Assembly (NCBI GenBank): GCA_947177395.1
Contig: CAMWUI010000020.1
Location: 1 to 50,617 of the forward strand
Direction of reading: 5' to 3'
Length of the DNA stretch: 50,617 nucleotides
Source: an uncultured Paraprevotella sp.
Lineage (GTDB): Bacteria; Bacteroidota; Bacteroidia; Bacteroidales; Bacteroidaceae
Shown: one piece after another, positions 8,800 through 44,135 of the stretch
How the letters are laid out: each line of letters opens with the position of its first letter
Numbering within the stretch: position 1 is the first letter of the stretch
The notes under the pieces: model-generated
Databases searched by the model: none
What the model was told of the DNA's origin: nothing
What the model saw: only the letters and a program-made list of their open reading frames with translations
Position numbers and translations under genes: made by a program

Positions 8800-9402
8800 A
8801 TGAGTGACAACCGCATACCGATGATTCAGATTGACGATACGATAATTTCCGTCGACTGTCTTACCGAGAAGTTCTGTTGCGACTTGGGCGCATGCAAGGG
8901 GGAGTGTTGTATCGAAGGCGATGCCGGAGCACCGGTGGAGTTGGAGGAAGTGGCCGAACTGGAAGAGGCGTTGCCCGTGGTGTGGCCCATGTTATCAGCT
9001 TCGGCACAGGCTGTAATCGACCGTCAGGGAGTGGTCTACACCGACGAGGAGGGCGACCTGGTGACCAGTATTGTCAACGGAAAGGATTGCGTGTTCACGT
9101 GCTATGGCGAGGACGGTTCCTGCTATTGTGCGCTGGAAAAGGCCTTCCGCGAAGGCAAGAGTCGTTTCTATAAGCCCATATCCTGTCACCTTTATCCCAT
9201 CCGGCTGAAAAAGATAGGCGACTGCGTGGCATTGAACTACAACCGTTGGGACGTTTGCAAGATGGCTGTAGTGAAAGGGCGTCAGCTGGACCTTCCGGTC
9301 TATCGGTTCCTGAAAGCCCCGTTGATACGCCGCTTCGGTGAAGCCTGGTACGCCGAGTTGGAGGATGCCGTGGAAGAACTGAAACAGCAGGGAATGATTT
9401 GA
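8800..9402 (+). CDS. DUF3109 family cysteine-rich protein
   Basis: A 200-residue cytoplasmic protein matching the Bacteroidota DUF3109 family. It has clusters of cysteines: FCCDLGACKGECC near residues 26-37, then VFTCYGEDGSCYC and KPISCHLYPIR. The spacing resembles the metal-binding CxxCxxxCC-type proteins of the YkgJ/UPF0153 group, so zinc or iron-sulfur binding is likely but unproven. It starts four bases after ung, which suggests shared transcription and perhaps a link to DNA maintenance. No catalytic function is established for the family as far as I know. Confidence 0.82.
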   Translation: MSDNRIPMIQIDDTIISVDCLTEKFCCDLGACKGECCIEGDAGAPVELEEVAELEEALPVVWPMLSASAQAVIDRQGVVYTDEEGDLVTSIVNGKDCVFTCYGEDGSCYCALEKAFREGKSRFYKPISCHLYPIRLKKIGDCVALNYNRWDVCKMAVVKGRQLDLPVYRFLKAPLIRRFGEAWYAELEDAVEELKQQGMI

Positions 9403-9464
9403 AAGAACGTCCGTGTCCCTGCCGGCAAAGGAATAAAATCTGTTGTGATAAAAAGTATTGTATC

Positions 9465-10778
9465 ATGAAAAACATCAAGGTAGTATTATTGATATCGTTG
9501 TTGGGAATCAGTCTGCATGCCGGTGCGCAGGTGCTTCAACCACAGTCTGCGGAGGAGAGCCGGAACGAGTTCTCCGATGCCAAGTTCGGAATCTTCCTGC
9601 ATTGGGGCATCTACTCCATGTTCGGTCAGGGCGAGTGGTATATGCAGAACGCCGGCATAGACCGGCTGGAATATGCCAAGGCGGCGAATGCCTTTTATCC
9701 CCACGACTTTGATGCCGACGCCTGGGTATCGGCCTTCAAGGATGCCGGTGCGCGGTATGTCTGTTTCACCTCCCGCCATCACGATGGTTTCTCCATGTGG
9801 GACACGGCGGAGAGCGACTTCAACATCATGCACACCCCGTTCAGGCGCGACGTGGTGAAAGAACTGGCAGACGCCTGCCATGTCCAGGGGATGAGGCTAC
9901 ATCTTTATTACTCCCACATAGACTGGATGCGCGAGGATTATCCGATGGGGCGGACTGGGACCCGGACTGGAAAGAATCCGGCCCGGGCGGACTGGACTTC
10001 CTATTACGCTTTTATGAACCGCCAGCTGACGGAGATCCTCACCAAGTACGGTCGTATCGGAGCCATCTGGTTCGACGGGCATTGGGACCACGACCAAGAT
10101 TCGGTGCCATTCGACTGGCAACTGTCCTCTCAATATGAAATGATTCACAAGTTGCAGCCCGCTTGTCTTGTAGGGAACAACCACCACCGTGCGCCCTATC
10201 CGGGTGAAGACATACAGTTGTTCGAACGTGATGTGCCGGGCGAGAACCGTGCCGGCTTGTCGGGACAGTCCGTGAGCCGCCTGCCGCTTGAAACCTGTCA
10301 GACGATGAACGGGATGTGGGGGTATAAAGTCACTGACCAGAACTATAAATCTGCCGCCGAACTGATTCGTCTGCTGGTGCGTACGGCCGGCAAGGGAGCC
10401 AATCTTCTGTTGAACATAGGTCCGCAGCCCGACGGCAACCTGCCCGCAACGGCTTTGGAACGGTTGAAAGAGATGGGTAAATGGTTGCGCGAGAACGGCG
10501 AATCCATTTACGGGACCACAGCCGGACAGGTCGGCGACGGTGAGAATGTCGTATCAACCAGAAAGGGCACGCATCTGTATGTGCACTTGCTCAACGACAC
10601 CCTGTCGGGATGTCTCACTCTGCCTGTAACTGAGAAGATAAAGGCTGTGAGAACTTTCCCCGGCGGAGAAGAGATAAAGCATACGGTCAGGGGCGGTATC
10701 CTGACGCTGAATGTTCCCGAACCGGCATCCGAAGGTATTACGGATCGCATCATCAAGGTCGAGTTGCGCACTCGCTGA
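9465..10778 (+). CDS. GH29 alpha-L-fucosidase, secreted
   Basis: A 437-residue glycoside hydrolase family 29 enzyme, expected to release alpha-linked L-fucose from glycans by a retaining mechanism. The start at 9465 is chosen because MKNIKVVLLISLLGISLHAGAQ is a signal peptide; the upstream ATG at 9399 overlaps the previous stop and adds a Cys-rich tail. The family hallmarks FGIFLHWGIYS, RHHDGFSMWD and IWFDGHWDHD are present, with Asp204 as the probable nucleophile. The C-terminal 80 residues form the usual small beta-sandwich. There is no lipobox, so it should be periplasmic. It differs clearly from the second GH29 at 16883. No clear terminator follows; a TGTACA repeat array lies 63 bases downstream. 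Confidence 0.93.
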   Translation: MKNIKVVLLISLLGISLHAGAQVLQPQSAEESRNEFSDAKFGIFLHWGIYSMFGQGEWYMQNAGIDRLEYAKAANAFYPHDFDADAWVSAFKDAGARYVCFTSRHHDGFSMWDTAESDFNIMHTPFRRDVVKELADACHVQGMRLHLYYSHIDWMREDYPMGRTGTRTGKNPARADWTSYYAFMNRQLTEILTKYGRIGAIWFDGHWDHDQDSVPFDWQLSSQYEMIHKLQPACLVGNNHHRAPYPGEDIQLFERDVPGENRAGLSGQSVSRLPLETCQTMNGMWGYKVTDQNYKSAAELIRLLVRTAGKGANLLLNIGPQPDGNLPATALERLKEMGKWLRENGESIYGTTAGQVGDGENVVSTRKGTHLYVHLLNDTLSGCLTLPVTEKIKAVRTFPGGEEIKHTVRGGILTLNVPEPASEGITDRIIKVELRTR

Positions 10779-10841
10779 CTCTCTATTCAGTTTCATTCTT
10801 AGGTGCAAATTTAGTGAGCTTATTCGGTATACAATAGGCTG

Positions 10842-10971
10842 TGTACACTTTGTACAGCAGTTGCTGTACACTTTGTACAGCAGGCATTGTACACTTTGTA
10901 CAGCAGGCATTGTACACTTTGTACAACAGGCATTGTACACTCTGTACAACAGGCACTGTACAAGTTGTCCA
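10842..10971. repeat. Six-unit 23-bp tandem array of paired TGTACA palindromes
   Basis: Units begin at 10842, 10865, 10888, 10911, 10934 and 10957, exactly 23 bp apart. Each is TGTACA-CTT-TGTACA plus a short linker such as GCAGGCAT. That makes eleven perfect TGTACA palindromes and one TGTCCA, spaced alternately 9 and 14 bases. Each pair can form a 6 bp hairpin with a 3-base loop on either strand. The array lies between the convergent fucosidase and MATE genes. It has no T tract. The unit length is not a multiple of three, so the open frames across it are not credible genes. Confidence 0.95.
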
Positions 10972-10975
10972 CACG

Positions 10976-11135
10976 GTGTTGAACAAAGCTGGACGAACCG
11001 TCCATAAAATCTTAATGGAAGAAAAACTGACTGTACAGCTTCTTGCTGATTTATGTGGACTGAATGTAATATGTTGTATAATAGGAGTAATTGTTTGGAG
11101 TAGGAGCGGAGTGGATGGCTGATAATGATTCCTAT
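10976..11135. other. Remainder of the convergent gap, no gene seen
   Basis: The 160 bases between the TGTACA array and the MATE stop hold one isolated TGTACA (11032-11037) and AT-rich sequence. I see no coding region, terminator or promoter that I can support. The 63 bases before the array are equally plain. Confidence 0.6.
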
Positions 11136-12473
11136 TTATTTATTGTGTAGATAGAACATAACGATACACAGCGACGTGAGTGATTCGGAGACGAACAAGG
11201 ACAGCCATATACCGGAGTTGCCGAATATCTCAGGCATGATTATGAACACGGGAATGAGGTATGTACCGCGCAGCAGGGCAAATACGATTGACGGCATGAC
11301 TCTTTTTACGCTCTGGAAATAACCTATGGCCGTGAGGTTGAAGATGAAGAATACGAATGCAGCGGAAAAAAGAGGAAAGCCGGCTATGGCTATTCTTGTT
11401 GCCGGCAGGTCTCCGTCAAGGAAGAGCTGTACCATCGTTGTCGGGGCGAATACAAACAGCGCGGTCACGGTCAGACCGCAGACGATGGCCGAAAATATGG
11501 CGAGTCGTTCGGCGGCCATGACTCTGTGCCGGCATCCGAGTCCGTAATTGTAGCTGATGATGGGCTGTACCGATTGTGCGATGGCATTGCCTATCATAAA
11601 GACAAAGGGGCAATAGTAGCATGCTATGCTGAAAGCTCCCACACCGTCGTTTCCCATGTAGCGCATGAACACCAGGTTGCCCGTCAGCATCAGTACTCCC
11701 ATGGTTGCTTCGCCCAGCAGTGCTGAAATGCCTATTTTGCATTGGTAGCCGATGTTGCGGAAGGTCAGTGCCATGCTTTTGCGGCTGAGCTTTATTCTGA
11801 TTAGCCGCAGAGTGGCGGCGAAGACACCCAGATATCCCATTATCATCACGCCTCCCACGGCGCAACTTATGCAGGTGGCGAGGGCGGCCCCTCTTATCCC
11901 CATTTGCAGGGGAAATATGAAAAGATAATCGAGCAGAACGTTAAGCAAGCCGGGCAGCACGTTGCACCACATGGCGTATTTGGGCGATCCGTCGAGCCGT
12001 ACGATAAATAGGCCGATGGCTCCCCATACCTGGAACAGGCAGGCAAGGAATATCCAGGGCATATATGCGGTTACCAGTGGCATGAGCGATTCGGAACTGC
12101 CGAGCAGACGGCCTGTGGCCTCGGGAGATGCAAGAGTTGTCAGAAGAAACAAGGCCACGATAAGGGTGGCGAGCAGCAATGCCTGGGTTACATTCAGCCG
12201 GGCGGCTTTTACATTGCCGTTGGCAAGGTGGATGGAGGAGACCACCGACGCTCCCATGCCGAGCATGAGCCCGATGCCCATGATGACCATCGTGGGTGAG
12301 ATACAGATGTTTACGGCGGCAAGGGCGTCGCTGCCCACGCCACGTCCCACAAATATGCCGTCGGTTGCCGTCACTGCGCACAAGGACAGCATTCCCAGAA
12401 GAGTGGGGATGAAATAGATTCTGAAAAGGCGGGGTATCTCTACGGTCCCCAGATCGACTGAATCGCGTTGCAT
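11136..12473 (-). CDS. MATE family efflux transporter
   Basis: A 445-residue multi-pass inner-membrane protein with about 12 hydrophobic helices, typical of MATE (NorM/DinF/MepA-type) cation-coupled exporters. Family features include the N-terminal RLFRIYFIPTLLGMLSLCAVTATDGIF helix, the GRGVGSDALAAVNI motif after helix 1, and the repeated second half starting near IGISALLGEATMGVLML. The substrate cannot be read from the sequence. The start at 12473 gives a normal N-terminus. It follows a 130-base leader with a terminator-like hairpin and has its own promoter, so expression may be regulated by attenuation. It is not obviously cotranscribed with the glycan operon upstream. Confidence 0.9.
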   Translation of the reverse strand: MQRDSVDLGTVEIPRLFRIYFIPTLLGMLSLCAVTATDGIFVGRGVGSDALAAVNICISPTMVIMGIGLMLGMGASVVSSIHLANGNVKAARLNVTQALLLATLIVALFLLTTLASPEATGRLLGSSESLMPLVTAYMPWIFLACLFQVWGAIGLFIVRLDGSPKYAMWCNVLPGLLNVLLDYLFIFPLQMGIRGAALATCISCAVGGVMIMGYLGVFAATLRLIRIKLSRKSMALTFRNIGYQCKIGISALLGEATMGVLMLTGNLVFMRYMGNDGVGAFSIACYYCPFVFMIGNAIAQSVQPIISYNYGLGCRHRVMAAERLAIFSAIVCGLTVTALFVFAPTTMVQLFLDGDLPATRIAIAGFPLFSAAFVFFIFNLTAIGYFQSVKRVMPSIVFALLRGTYLIPVFIIMPEIFGNSGIWLSLFVSESLTSLCIVMFYLHNK

Positions 12474-12502
12474 ACGTTACGTCTTCATGGAAGGTTGAAC
12501 AT

Positions 12503-12550
12503 AAAAAGAGCCGCATAAGATTCGAGGTTTTACCCAGTCATCTTATCCGG
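12503..12550 (-). promoter_or_regulatory. Structured leader with terminator-like hairpin before the MATE gene
   Basis: On the reverse strand CCGGATAAGAT and ATCTTATGCGG can form a long stem around an 18-base loop, followed by CTCTTTTT, only 29 bases before the MATE start codon. Two smaller hairpins precede it, GATTGTAA/TTGTAATC and CCTC/GAGG. The arrangement suggests transcription attenuation or a riboswitch. I do not recognise a named riboswitch class. Confidence 0.5.
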
Positions 12551-12607
12551 CCATATATGTCATGCCCTCCGATGAGGATTACAAAACGCTGCTTACAATC
12601 GGCACTG

Positions 12608-12638
12608 CAAAGTTAGTGCTTTTCGTTCGGATGGCAAA
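12608..12638 (-). promoter_or_regulatory. Promoter of the MATE gene
   Basis: Reverse strand TTTG, exactly 19 bases, TAACTTTG: a full Bacteroidota promoter. Transcription should start near 12601, leaving a leader of about 130 bases. Confidence 0.75.
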
Positions 12639-12661
12639 ATATTAGGTTGGGCTATATTGCG

Positions 12662-13468
12662 TCAGTGTATGTCCTGCAGGAAACGTTCAACCAAACTGTT
12701 GGATATAACCCGCTGCTGAGGGTTGAAGCCGTGTCCGGCTCCGGGAATGATTTCCAGCCGGGCCTTCCTGTAAGCATCCTTTGCCTTTTCCGAGTAGACT
12801 GCCGGTACAATGGGGTCCCGATCGCCGTGGACGATGAGTACGGGACCTTTGTAGGCATCGATGATGTCGAACGGATTCATGTCGTGGATCTCGAGAAAGA
12901 ACCTCCGGCCCAGCGGGACGTTCCATATGTAGGTGGTGTCGGGGATAGCCTCGGCGGTCGGATACCGCCCGTTCCAGTTGTCAGGGATGCAGAAGGCCGG
13001 ATAAATGAGTACCAGCGCACTGATCTGCTTTTTCAGTTCGGCTGCAGCCAGTGCGGAGACAAGTCCTCCCTGGCTTTCGCCTATCAGCACGATGTTGTTC
13101 TTGTCTGTGTCTTTCTGTTTCCGGAAATATCTGACGATGGCTTTCAGGCATTCCTTTTCGTCGAGTACCGACATGTTCATGGTGTTGCTGTCCGTGTTGC
13201 TACGGACGGAACCGCAGGGAAAGTCGAACGTGTATACCTGGTATCCCAGTTTGTTGAGTGTCTGGAAATAATCTCTTCCGAAGTGGTGGCTGCCGTTAAA
13301 CCCGTGGCTGATGATGGCCACTTTGTTTTTGGATGTGCCGGAGGAAGGGGCGGGGCGGCTTATGATGCCGTAGATGGTCTTGTTGCCGTAAGGTATTCTC
13401 AGTACCTGTTGTGCGGCTACTATCGTGACTGACAGCAGCATCAGAAAGAAGATGGACGTTTTTTTCAT
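12662..13468 (-). CDS. Secreted alpha/beta hydrolase (serine hydrolase)
   Basis: A 268-residue alpha/beta-hydrolase of the S33-like or acyl esterase-like type. The start at 13468 gives the signal peptide MKKTSIFFLMLLSVTIVAAQ; in-frame ATGs at 13510 and 13480 would add a second hydrophobic tail in front. The triad is visible: Ser in LIGESQGG, Asp in VHGDRDPIVP and His in GAGHGF. NKVAIISHGFNGSHHFG is the oxyanion-hole strand. It is the last gene of an apparent operon with a GH16 and a GH29 enzyme, 87 bases after the GH16 stop. An esterase that removes acyl groups from glycans would fit, but a peptidase or lipase is possible. Confidence 0.85.
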   Translation of the reverse strand: MKKTSIFFLMLLSVTIVAAQQVLRIPYGNKTIYGIISRPAPSSGTSKNKVAIISHGFNGSHHFGRDYFQTLNKLGYQVYTFDFPCGSVRSNTDSNTMNMSVLDEKECLKAIVRYFRKQKDTDKNNIVLIGESQGGLVSALAAAELKKQISALVLIYPAFCIPDNWNGRYPTAEAIPDTTYIWNVPLGRRFFLEIHDMNPFDIIDAYKGPVLIVHGDRDPIVPAVYSEKAKDAYRKARLEIIPGAGHGFNPQQRVISNSLVERFLQDIH

Positions 13469-40816: not shown

Positions 40817-41869
40817 ATGAAGAAGACTTTACTTCTGATGTTTGCTTTCCTGGGCGGCATGGTGGCTCAGGCACAGAACACCGTTACTTATACGGACAAC
40901 TTGGTGGTGACGATAAACGAAGAGAGCACGGAACCGCAGCCCACGGAAATCAAGGTGACGACGAATGCGGACGGCACTTATACCCTGGCTTTGGACAACT
41001 TCATGCTGGGCGCCGGCGAGGATGCACTTGCTGTGGGCAACATTGTATTGAAGAACATCTCGGGTACGGAGGAGAACGGCCGTATCAAATTGAATACTAC
41101 ACAAACGATACAGATAGTTCCGGGTACGGATGAAACCATTCCCGAAGAAGCTTGGATAGGCCCGATGTTGGGTGACGTCCCCGTTGTGTTGGTAGCCGAA
41201 ATGACGGCCGATAAGTTGCACTGCCTGATAGACATCGATATGATGGAGACCCTCGAACAAATAATAAAGGTAACTTTTGGTACTCCTTTTGGAGAATCGG
41301 AAGAGCCCGGAGTAACCGTTACTTATACGGATGACTTGGTAGTGACGATAAACGAAGAGAGCACGGAACCGCAGCCCACGGAAATCAAGGTGACGACGAA
41401 TGCGGACGGCACTTATACCCTGGCTTTGGACAACTTCATGCTGGGCGCCGGCGAGGATGCACTTGCTGTGGGCAACATTGTATTGAAGAACATCTCGGGT
41501 ACGGAGGAGAACGGCCGTATCAAATTGAATACTACACAAACGATACAGATAGTTCCGGGTACGGATGAAACCATTCCCGAAGAAGCTTGGATAGGCCCGA
41601 TGTTGGGTGACGTCCCCGTTGTGTTGGTAGCCGAAATGACGGCCGACAAGTTGCACTGCCTGATAGACATCGATATGATGGAGACCCTCGAACAAGTGAT
41701 AAAAGTGACCTTCGGTACTCCGTTTAAAACTACTGGTATTCAAAAGGTTGTTCCCTCTCAAAATAAGTCGACGAGGTATTACTCTTTGGATGGTGTTTTG
41801 AAGGGAAGCGATTGGAATCAATTATCGAAAGGTGTTTATATTGTAAATGGTAAGAAAGTAGTTAAATAA
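40817..41869 (+). CDS. Secreted protein with two nearly identical calycin-like domains and a C-terminal sorting-like tail
   Basis: A 350-residue protein with a signal peptide (MKKTLLLMFAFLGGMVAQAQ) and two copies of a domain of about 145 residues that matches the calycin-like beta-barrel family of Bacteroidales (VTYTDxLVVTINEEST, GTYTLALDNFML, then GNIVLKNI). The copies differ at only a few residues: N/D in YTDNL/YTDDL and I/V in EQIIK/EQVIK. After the second copy a short AT-rich segment encodes a C-terminus that ends SKGVYIVNGKKVVK, like type IX-type sorting signals. Such barrels bind small hydrophobic ligands or act as adhesion modules; the ligand is unknown. One base separates its stop from the next start. 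Confidence 0.85.
   Translation: MKKTLLLMFAFLGGMVAQAQNTVTYTDNLVVTINEESTEPQPTEIKVTTNADGTYTLALDNFMLGAGEDALAVGNIVLKNISGTEENGRIKLNTTQTIQIVPGTDETIPEEAWIGPMLGDVPVVLVAEMTADKLHCLIDIDMMETLEQIIKVTFGTPFGESEEPGVTVTYTDDLVVTINEESTEPQPTEIKVTTNADGTYTLALDNFMLGAGEDALAVGNIVLKNISGTEENGRIKLNTTQTIQIVPGTDETIPEEAWIGPMLGDVPVVLVAEMTADKLHCLIDIDMMETLEQVIKVTFGTPFKTTGIQKVVPSQNKSTRYYSLDGVLKGSDWNQLSKGVYIVNGKKVVK
40881..41715 (+). repeat. Two-copy 435-bp in-frame tandem duplication
   Basis: The second copy begins 435 bases after the first. Across the core (about 40909-41260 against 41344-41695) I find one mismatch (GATAAG/GACAAG). The flanking 30-40 bases differ more. Synonymous sites are as conserved as the others. Confidence 0.95.
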
Positions 41870-43903: not shown

Positions 43904-44015
43904 AAGGAATACTATCCTTAGGTTGTAAGGAATACAATCGTAAGGTGCTAAGGAATACTATTATAAGGAGACAAGGAATACTATTGTGAGCACTTAACGA
44001 TAGTATTTCATTCCC
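43904..44015. repeat. Four-unit 23-bp tandem array (AAGGAATACTAT type) plus an inverted partial unit
   Basis: Units start at 43904, 43927, 43950 and 43973, exactly 23 bases apart. Each begins AAGGAATAC(T/A)AT and ends with a more variable 11 bases that often contains TAAGG or TTAGG. A fifth partial unit in inverted sense (GATAGTATTTCATTCC) closes the array. Confidence 0.9.
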
Positions 44016-44018
44016 CGA

Positions 44019-44135
44019 GTGGATCGCACTCTGCGACCCATAGTGGACAGCGCTTCACTACCTCTAATGGACAGCACTCCACTACCCCCAGTGAACAGCG
44101 CTCCACTCGACAAGTGAACAGCACACGGCTCGGCA
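44019..44135. repeat. Five-unit 24-bp tandem array (GTGGACAGCGCT type)
   Basis: Units start at 44019, 44043, 44067, 44091 and 44114. The typical unit is GTG(G/A)ACAGC(G/A)CTCCACT plus a short linker; the first unit is the most diverged. AGTG and CACT or CCACT frame a central AGCGCT, so most units have dyad symmetry. Confidence 0.9.

Follow-up and report, generated by a model that had tools for sequence, protein, structure and literature searches.

An array of six palindromic units in the chromosome of an uncultured Paraprevotella sp. is, judging by its letters and layout, probably an orphan array of replication-origin iterons of the O type, the type found in phages. It lies at positions 10842-10971 of the stretch of 50,617 nucleotides that was analysed (hereafter the window). 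On our best reading the array works like an O-type iteron array and fails as an origin, the initiator gene being absent beside it. O-type iterons are already known in phages, and the new part is the existence of orphan chromosomal arrays of them.

A six-unit dyad array between convergent genes

The array has six units with an exact step of 23 bp, starting at 10842, 10865, 10888, 10911, 10934 and 10957. Units 1 to 5 read TGTACA-N3-TGTACA and unit 6 reads TGTACA-AGT-TGTCCA, which makes a total of eleven TGTACA and one TGTCCA. This composition had been described in an earlier note on the same DNA, and both pattern matching and TRF (period 23, 5.3 copies, match 92%, 0 indels) agree with it. The repeat combines a 15-bp dyad (6-3-6) with an 8-bp linker. 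Pattern matching places the dyads TGTACACTTTGTACA at 10842-10856, 10865-10879, 10888-10902 and 10911-10925, followed by TGTACACTCTGTACA at 10934-10948 and by the end variant TGTACAAGTTGTCCA at 10957-10971. A degenerate unit, GTATACAATAGGCTG, was read from the sequence at 10827-10841, directly preceding the array. The array is real and far beyond chance: with up to two mismatches, the window has seven matches to TGTACA-N3-TGTACA, of which the array accounts for six, against an expectation of 1.3, and none of 100 shuffled sequences had as many matches. Its dyad score was reached by 0 of 200 column permutations.

Past the last unit follows a conserved tail (10972-11060, + strand), parts of which align with those of three other arrays of the genome, L027, L030 and L035 (75-80% over 59-83 bp). 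This tail holds an extra 15-bp dyad of the 6-3-6 form, TGGACGAACCGTCCA at 10990-11004, read from the sequence and lying outside the 23-bp register. The AT content at 60-120 bp into the tail is 68% in the window and 53-72% across nine arrays, and does not make a clear AT-rich arm. As the earlier note had stated, the site lies between two convergent stop codons. Open reading frames and family matches assign these to an alpha-L-fucosidase gene (PF01120; 9399-10778, + strand, with a mechanically called start), whose stop at 10778 is 64 bp before the array, and to a MATE transporter gene (PF01554; 11136-12473, - strand), whose stop at 11136 puts its end 165 bp past it.

Two further repeats were seen in the window. 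At 43904-44122 there is a second dispersed repeat, a 23-bp array adjoining a 24-bp array with units carrying AGTGGA...TCCACT, which is 86% identical over 254 bp to positions 3297-3549 of L038 and partly present in L039; a single stretch resembling it was noticed by eye upstream of the array of the viral contig L182, and BLAST did not list it. At 40880-41725 there is a tandem duplication of 435 bp (match 97%, 1.9 copies).

Related arrays in the same genome

Using a covariance model built on three units (R1), we found arrays in at least 13 places of the genome, with 150 of 426 candidates scored. They are on contigs C2 (two arrays), C7, C9, C13, C15, C19, C20 (which carries the window), C32, C34, C36, C40 and C42. 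The array on C32 is weak, sits at a contig end and is outside the 12 arrays that were examined. A strict two-unit pattern gave 12 matches in the genome. All 12 examined arrays are intergenic, they contain 4-7 units (six units in 7 of the 12), and the TGTCCA end variant occurs in the tail-side unit of the window array and of several others. Most of them are significant in a TRF-based dyad test, the exceptions being L035 (p 0.37) and L036 (p 0.075). A tail accompanies nine of the 12 arrays, in version A at L026, L031, L032, L033 and L034 and in version B at the window array, L027, L030 and L035; neither version was found at L028, L029 and L036. Directly upstream of L026, L031 and L033 we also observed a common terminator-like stretch (GAGG...CCTCTTTCTTTTTT).

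Dispersed intergenic copies with a common tail in two versions are what a non-autonomous, MITE-like mobile repeat would leave, with array and tail copied by a trans-acting transposase in the manner of BrickBuilt and the array as cargo or by-product. A MITE with 23-nt tandem repeats is known in P. gingivalis, according to the accessible part of its description (PMC4596501). However, inspection of the flanks by eye revealed neither terminal inverted repeats nor target duplications, the left end is not common to the copies except for the terminator-like stretch in three of them, and the RAYT/Y1 transposase PF01797, the one family searched, had 0 matches in this genome (G000; assembly 87.7% complete). 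Moreover, a dyad with a 23-bp step is the design of initiator iterons. We consider a mobile repeat unlikely.

The earlier note had expected such arrays to recur at convergent gene ends. Recurrence is borne out by the copies described above, but convergence is not general: by ORF calling, the genes flanking the 12 arrays are convergent in 3 cases and tandem in 8, with 1 contig edge and 0 divergent pairs. A lower ORF cut-off gave 4 convergent, 7 tandem, 1 contig edge and 0 divergent for the same arrays. The background gaps comprise 20 tandem, 7 convergent and 7 divergent ones (n=34), and these numbers are small.

Constraint on the dyads

The note had further suggested that the palindromes are more constrained than the linkers, and a unit-by-unit comparison between nine arrays (the window array and L026-L033, with L034-L036 left out) agrees: identity is 1864/1980 (94%) in the stems, 293/495 (59%) in the loops and 856/1320 (65%) in the linkers. 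In the first 70 bp of the tail, 1596/2520 comparisons are identical over all pairs, the tail-less L028 and L029 included. Within versions, tail identity is 0.81 (B, three arrays) and 0.78 (A, four arrays), against 0.93 and 0.97 in the stems. The 60 bp upstream of the arrays are identical in 1195/2160 comparisons, about the level of a gapped alignment of unrelated DNA. Since the stems are most alike, and tails, loops, linkers and upstream sequences have drifted, the dyads are the best-kept part between copies.

This result bears on the view of the arrays as a functionless minisatellite, in which template switching keeps the palindromes perfect and slippage keeps the arrays in step. Arrays of 22-24 bp and of many sequences are indeed common in the sampled Bacteroidales stretches. 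Homogenisation within an array, however, does not produce stems that are alike between separate arrays with drifted loops and linkers, and the narrow range of sizes (4-7 units, with six predominating) also speaks against this view, which appears very unlikely to us.

Distribution across genomes

A relaxed two-unit pattern was matched in 1 of 399 genomes of the family, namely in the genome under study, and in 0 of the 398 others. With the strict two-unit pattern, again only this genome was matched among 18 genomes of the genus. The earlier note would have taken absence from all relatives, together with absence elsewhere in the genome and the lack of a bound protein or transcript effect, as evidence against its reading. 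The pattern is absent from the 17 congeners, while at least 13 arrays are present in the genome. A search for an empty site gave no match across the array junction in the 17 congeners; the best-kept stretch, 71-81% identical in 17 of 17, includes the genes for uracil-DNA glycosylase and DUF3109, in whole or in part.

In the order, which was taken as Bacteroidales because a genome read as P. gingivalis is assigned to it, R1 matched 2 of 393 genomes under strict filters: the genome under study and a weak second one. In a family taken as Porphyromonadaceae it matched 0 of 38. A scan of a species-genome collection, outside which our genome possibly lies, returned 12 stretches. Ten of these are in the Tannerella MAGs Gx485_bin220 and Iy174_bin48, which we take to be from termite guts, and the other two are in Neisseria sp. 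83E34 and in an Acidobacteriales MAG. Within the family of the Tannerella MAG, R1 matched 14 of 123 genomes, among them the MAG itself and G400, and some of the 14 have a 22-bp period. The 22-bp arrays L085, L087, L088, L089 and L100 were seen in this family, several of them showing ACA-NN-TGT at intervals of roughly 11 bp.

The same geometry with other letters is found in Tannerella. In Iy174_bin48, arrays on many contigs are built of 6-3-6 dyads at a 23-bp step with differing letters: TGTACA/TGTACA, CGTACA/TGTACG, GGTACA/TGTACC, AGTACA/TGTACT, GGGACA/TGTCCC and CGACCA/TGGTCG. In 41 three-unit rows from our genome and Tannerella, the two arms change together: pairing is kept in 94.3% of cells (shuffles: 81.8%), 68 cells are doubly changed (shuffles: 13.2), and the covariation is 0.331 (shuffles: 0.083), values that are overstated, as the rows are related and were chosen as dyads.

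These findings can be set against binding of the arrays by a resident host protein with a nucleoid, segregation or regulatory function, unrelated to phage initiators. Such a protein would account for the conserved stems and the regular 23-bp spacing, and perhaps for the absence of divergent flanks in the 11 of our own arrays with both flanks known (0/11, compared with 7/34 background gaps). Absence from 17 congeners and 398 other genomes of the family, with the patterns used, would nevertheless be odd for a core host factor, and the several different dyads among the Tannerella arrays of one genome are a second point against it. A resident host protein is, in our estimate, quite unlikely.

RNA hairpins in 3' untranslated regions, with a role in termination, in protecting the mRNA or as a small RNA, are another possible source of paired arms. 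As an RNA, the window array has a predicted fold better than its shuffles (z -3.07). In counts made by hand, gene ends facing the arrays are 3' rather than 5' by 15 to 8 in our genome (12 arrays) and by 16 to 4 in Tannerella G399 (14 arrays, with 2 in possible ORFs left out), and the paired changes in Tannerella point the same way. In a P. gingivalis sample of 22 arrays, with 1 left out, however, 3' and 5' ends are equally frequent (22 each), three of our own arrays already have the terminator-like stretch ahead of them, and Rfam families gave no match in window positions 9000-13000. The paired changes themselves are predicted alike by a dimer-bound DNA dyad and by a hairpin, and where the third stem pair is a mismatch (T.C, G.A), neither strand would form a pair there. 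The earlier note had offered hairpins slowing polymerase and a small RNA made of repeats; these are not favoured here, since several variants break the pair on both strands and the phage motif is placed like a DNA-binding iteron (see below). Overall, we regard an RNA role as highly improbable.

The same motif in phages

To return to the reading of the array as O-type iterons, twelve viral contigs were matched by 23-bp TGTAC patterns and by 23- and 24-bp GGGACA patterns, and in 7 of the 12 an ORF with initiator-family support contains the motif or lies no more than 100 bp away. The relaxed TGTAC pattern matches four of them. In L181 it has four positions, one with a half lost, within a gene matching O-like initiation families (phrog_9773, 3e-9), which a DnaB gene adjoins. 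The five units of L182 end 77 bp before a called ORF that matches the replication initiation proteins of phrog_428 (1.3e-17). L184 has seven positions, one of them degenerate, ending 7 bp from a DnaD-like helicase loader ORF (phrog_6493, 2.3e-7). L183 has two units and no initiator-type gene nearby. A pattern of 18 fixed bases at 23 bp adds four more contigs: L248, whose units are within a gene with a phrog_9773 match (1e-30); L249, where the matched stretch is a simple repeat; L250, where a DnaD-like gene follows the two units at a distance of about 640 bp; and L251, with units in a repressor gene region. The Tannerella dyad GGGACA-N3-TGTCCC at 23 bp matches L252 and L253, in both cases within initiator-like genes (phrog_6493, 6.8e-35, and phrog_1032, 6.6e-20, respectively). 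At 24 bp, intended as a control, the same dyad matches L255 and L256, both within an ORF; that of L256 has weak initiator support (phrog_428, 6e-4) and that of L255 has no phrog match. The control thus does not separate 23 from 24 bp. The CGACCA and GGAACA dyads of the Tannerella family and the window tail motif matched no viral contig, and BLAST of the window region against phages and plasmids gave no relatives.

A 24-bp TGTAC scan returned 63 stretches, by their look mostly coding repeats, which were kept out of the 12-contig count. Two were taken further: L188, with units within a gene matching the initiator family phrog_4707, and L196, near a repressor-like gene. Paired GTAC dyads about 23-24 bp apart were also observed in L251, L185/L196, L197, L205 and L239 (L185, L197, L205 and L239 from printed lines); those of L251 and L196 are perhaps operators. 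On the bacterial side, 196 bp separate the array of Neisseria L047 from an O-like gene that matches phrog_9773 (2.5e-16).

The core of the window array, TGTACACTTTGTACA, is an exact 15-mer in the array of L248. When 22 core 15-mers of our genome were compared with 12 from the phage side, counting both strands, one site and its complement were in common; this is a short match, and the linkers have no likeness by eye. The terminase of L182 has its nearest relatives in Bacteroides phages (35-37%) and that of L184 in a Clostridioides phage (70%), so this type of iteron is not apparently confined to one host group. No O-like gene is annotated in two Bacteroides phages akin to L182 by terminase.

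The 23-bp period in initiator genes

The contigs above had been found by their repeats. As an independent test, we also examined initiator genes selected by the initiator protein alone: 12 records of named phages, chosen by eye for variety from the tblastn matches of the L248 and L181 initiators (63 and 39 records), in which the best self-match offset of the initiator gene was determined over the range 15-40. The top offset is 23 in 10 of the 12 phages; the exceptions are Acinetobacter phage TRS1, with 22, and Flavobacterium phage Fpv5, with 15. The self-match is above all 60 codon shuffles in 9 of 12, Fpv5 included, and is equalled by 2/60 shuffles in Pmp14, 2/60 in SspJY37 and 1/60 in BcepIL02. 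For the 23-bp result P is about 4e-13, a value valid only if the phages are independent and too small given their relatedness: two are Vibrio cyclitrophicus phages, and Aaphi23 and Pmp14 look alike. Of 33 flanking chunks taken from these records, 2 have 23 as the top offset, and three with other offsets exceed all shuffles. The viral contigs gave a top offset of 23 in L181, L248, L252 and L253 and of 24 in L188, L255 and L256; the self-match of L253 is no better than 34 of 60 shuffles. Under a stricter dyad scan, 4 of the 12 named phages showed chains of two units, all at 23 bp; that of Fpv5 was equalled by 6/40 shuffles. In Pseudomonas phage CF63a, a paired change distinguishes the adjacent units TGCGGAAAAGCCGCA and CGCGGAAAAGCCGCG.

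With the same dyad and 23-bp period in or beside phage initiator genes, and 23 bp as the usual offset, the earlier note's proposal of a plasmid- or phage-like iteron is well supported as regards the kind of site.

Orphan iterons as possible decoys

What could such iterons do in a chromosome? The 15-bp dyad appears to be built like the site of an O-like phage replication initiator (lambda type, winged-helix), and six dyads at 23 bp agree with the layout of an O-type origin. The chromosomal arrays might bind the initiator of an invading phage or related replicon. Held off the phage's own origin by titration or handcuffing, the initiator would then be lost to the phage, and replication would fail. 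That the arrays act as such decoys against phage replication is a suggestion to which we give somewhat less than an even chance. The predicted role fits because the arrays are many, keep their dyads and vary their linkers, lie in intergenic places, are patchily distributed and, in one Tannerella genome, comprise several dyads. Taken as a whole, orphan phage-type iterons titrating an invading initiator make the best explanation that we can offer, and we hold it to be about as probable as its negation.

Our initiator model A2 had no match in the genome under study or in G399, G400, G876 and G913, and gave one weak match among the 17 congeners, in G006 (L254), where there are four TGTAC sites and no 23-bp self-match. 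A2 recovers left-out members (E 1.6e-5 to 1.3e-21) and misses more distant initiators; as it is blind to these and the assembly is 87.7% complete, a resident initiator may have escaped detection.

There is an experimental precedent in E. coli. Cells carrying plasmids with lambda origins are lambda-resistant and give no plaques, and the authors' term for these origins, in the text available to us, is "DNA decoys" (PMC4488673). For the lambda inhibition phenotype, the available part of PMC3349717 states that iterons are needed and the AT-rich region is not, and that oop transcription is also required. In open-access titles and abstracts we found no account of chromosomal iteron arrays that serve naturally as decoys against phages. 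If the arrays do titrate phage initiators, this would be a defence without any protein, and a natural counterpart to the laboratory lambda decoys. That some Bacteroidales possess such a DNA-only immunity, with dispersed origin iterons as decoys for phage initiators, is a tentative idea, and one we consider doubtful. With similar reserve, the specificities TGTACA, GGGACA, CGACCA, AGTACA, GGTACA and CGTACA of Iy174_bin48, all at one spacing, could be what an arms race with iteron-changing phages would be expected to leave. The signature of a 15-bp dyad with a 22-24-bp period provides a means to look for phage origins of the O type and for orphan copies of them, and reading the arrays as iterons and decoys offers a testable account of some of the 22-24-bp palindromic arrays in Bacteroidales.

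Comparison with known systems

REP and BIME elements are short intergenic palindromes in many copies, associated with a RAYT-type transposase. Our arrays resemble them as multi-copy intergenic palindromes and in not being found between divergent genes, and differ from them in the strict 23-bp tandem arrangement. PF01797 was matched once in each of G399, G400 and G013; as it was not found in our own genome, RAYT is not needed, and a RAYT/REP origin was rejected.

BrickBuilt of P. gingivalis is described, in the accessible part of PMC4596501, as a 23-nt tandem repeat in a MITE with IS5-like terminal inverted repeats (TIRs), a leader and a tail. The likeness to our arrays is in the 23-bp tandem repeat without spacers, the dispersed intergenic copies and the conserved segment alongside. 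The brick AGACCATAGTATCCTCTCATRTG, read in G913 (taken as ATCC 33277), forms a weaker dyad than our units do (0.83-0.85, with p 0.055-0.095 by permutation), and G913 has no match to R1. With up to two mismatches, the IS5-like TIR GAGACCTTTGCA was found within 400 bp of the 12 arrays as one single match with 1 mismatch (L030) and none elsewhere. The identity of the window array with BrickBuilt was rejected, since repeat sequence and architecture differ, R1 has no match and the TIRs are, but for the one match at L030, missing. P. gingivalis has other short repeats of this size. In 600 kb sampled from G913, 28 of 68 TRF arrays have a period of 22 or 23, and 10 of 34 tested rows of 21-24 bp have a dyad with permutation p <=0.02. 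Apart from BrickBuilt, short 22/23-bp dyad arrays of several sequences were seen there (L136, L140, L142, L144, L150, L154, L157 and L162). Three P. gingivalis palindromic arrays gave no convincing match to phages.

The closest resemblance in design is to origins of the lambda type. According to the available text of the sources, the four iterons of lambda, 18-19 bp long and separated by short spacers, lie inside its gene O (PMC3349717, PMC4488673), and Stx phages have six (PMC3349717, PMC7466680). The window array likewise consists of tandem dyad iterons about 22-24 bp apart; the offset is 22-23 bp in 11 of the 12 initiator genes of origins of this type (by annotation including Aaphi23, Pmp14 and TRS1), and a 15-mer of the window is identical to one in a phage array. 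Unlike such origins, the window array is not inside a gene and has no initiator alongside, its flanks being the fucosidase and MATE genes; our arrays are many per chromosome, their AT-rich arm is not clear, and they are known here from sequence alone. With the ectopic lambda origins that act in decoy or inhibition experiments they have in common that iteron DNA is placed away from the phage, the difference being that those origins are man-made and on E. coli plasmids, whereas the arrays described here are natural and chromosomal.
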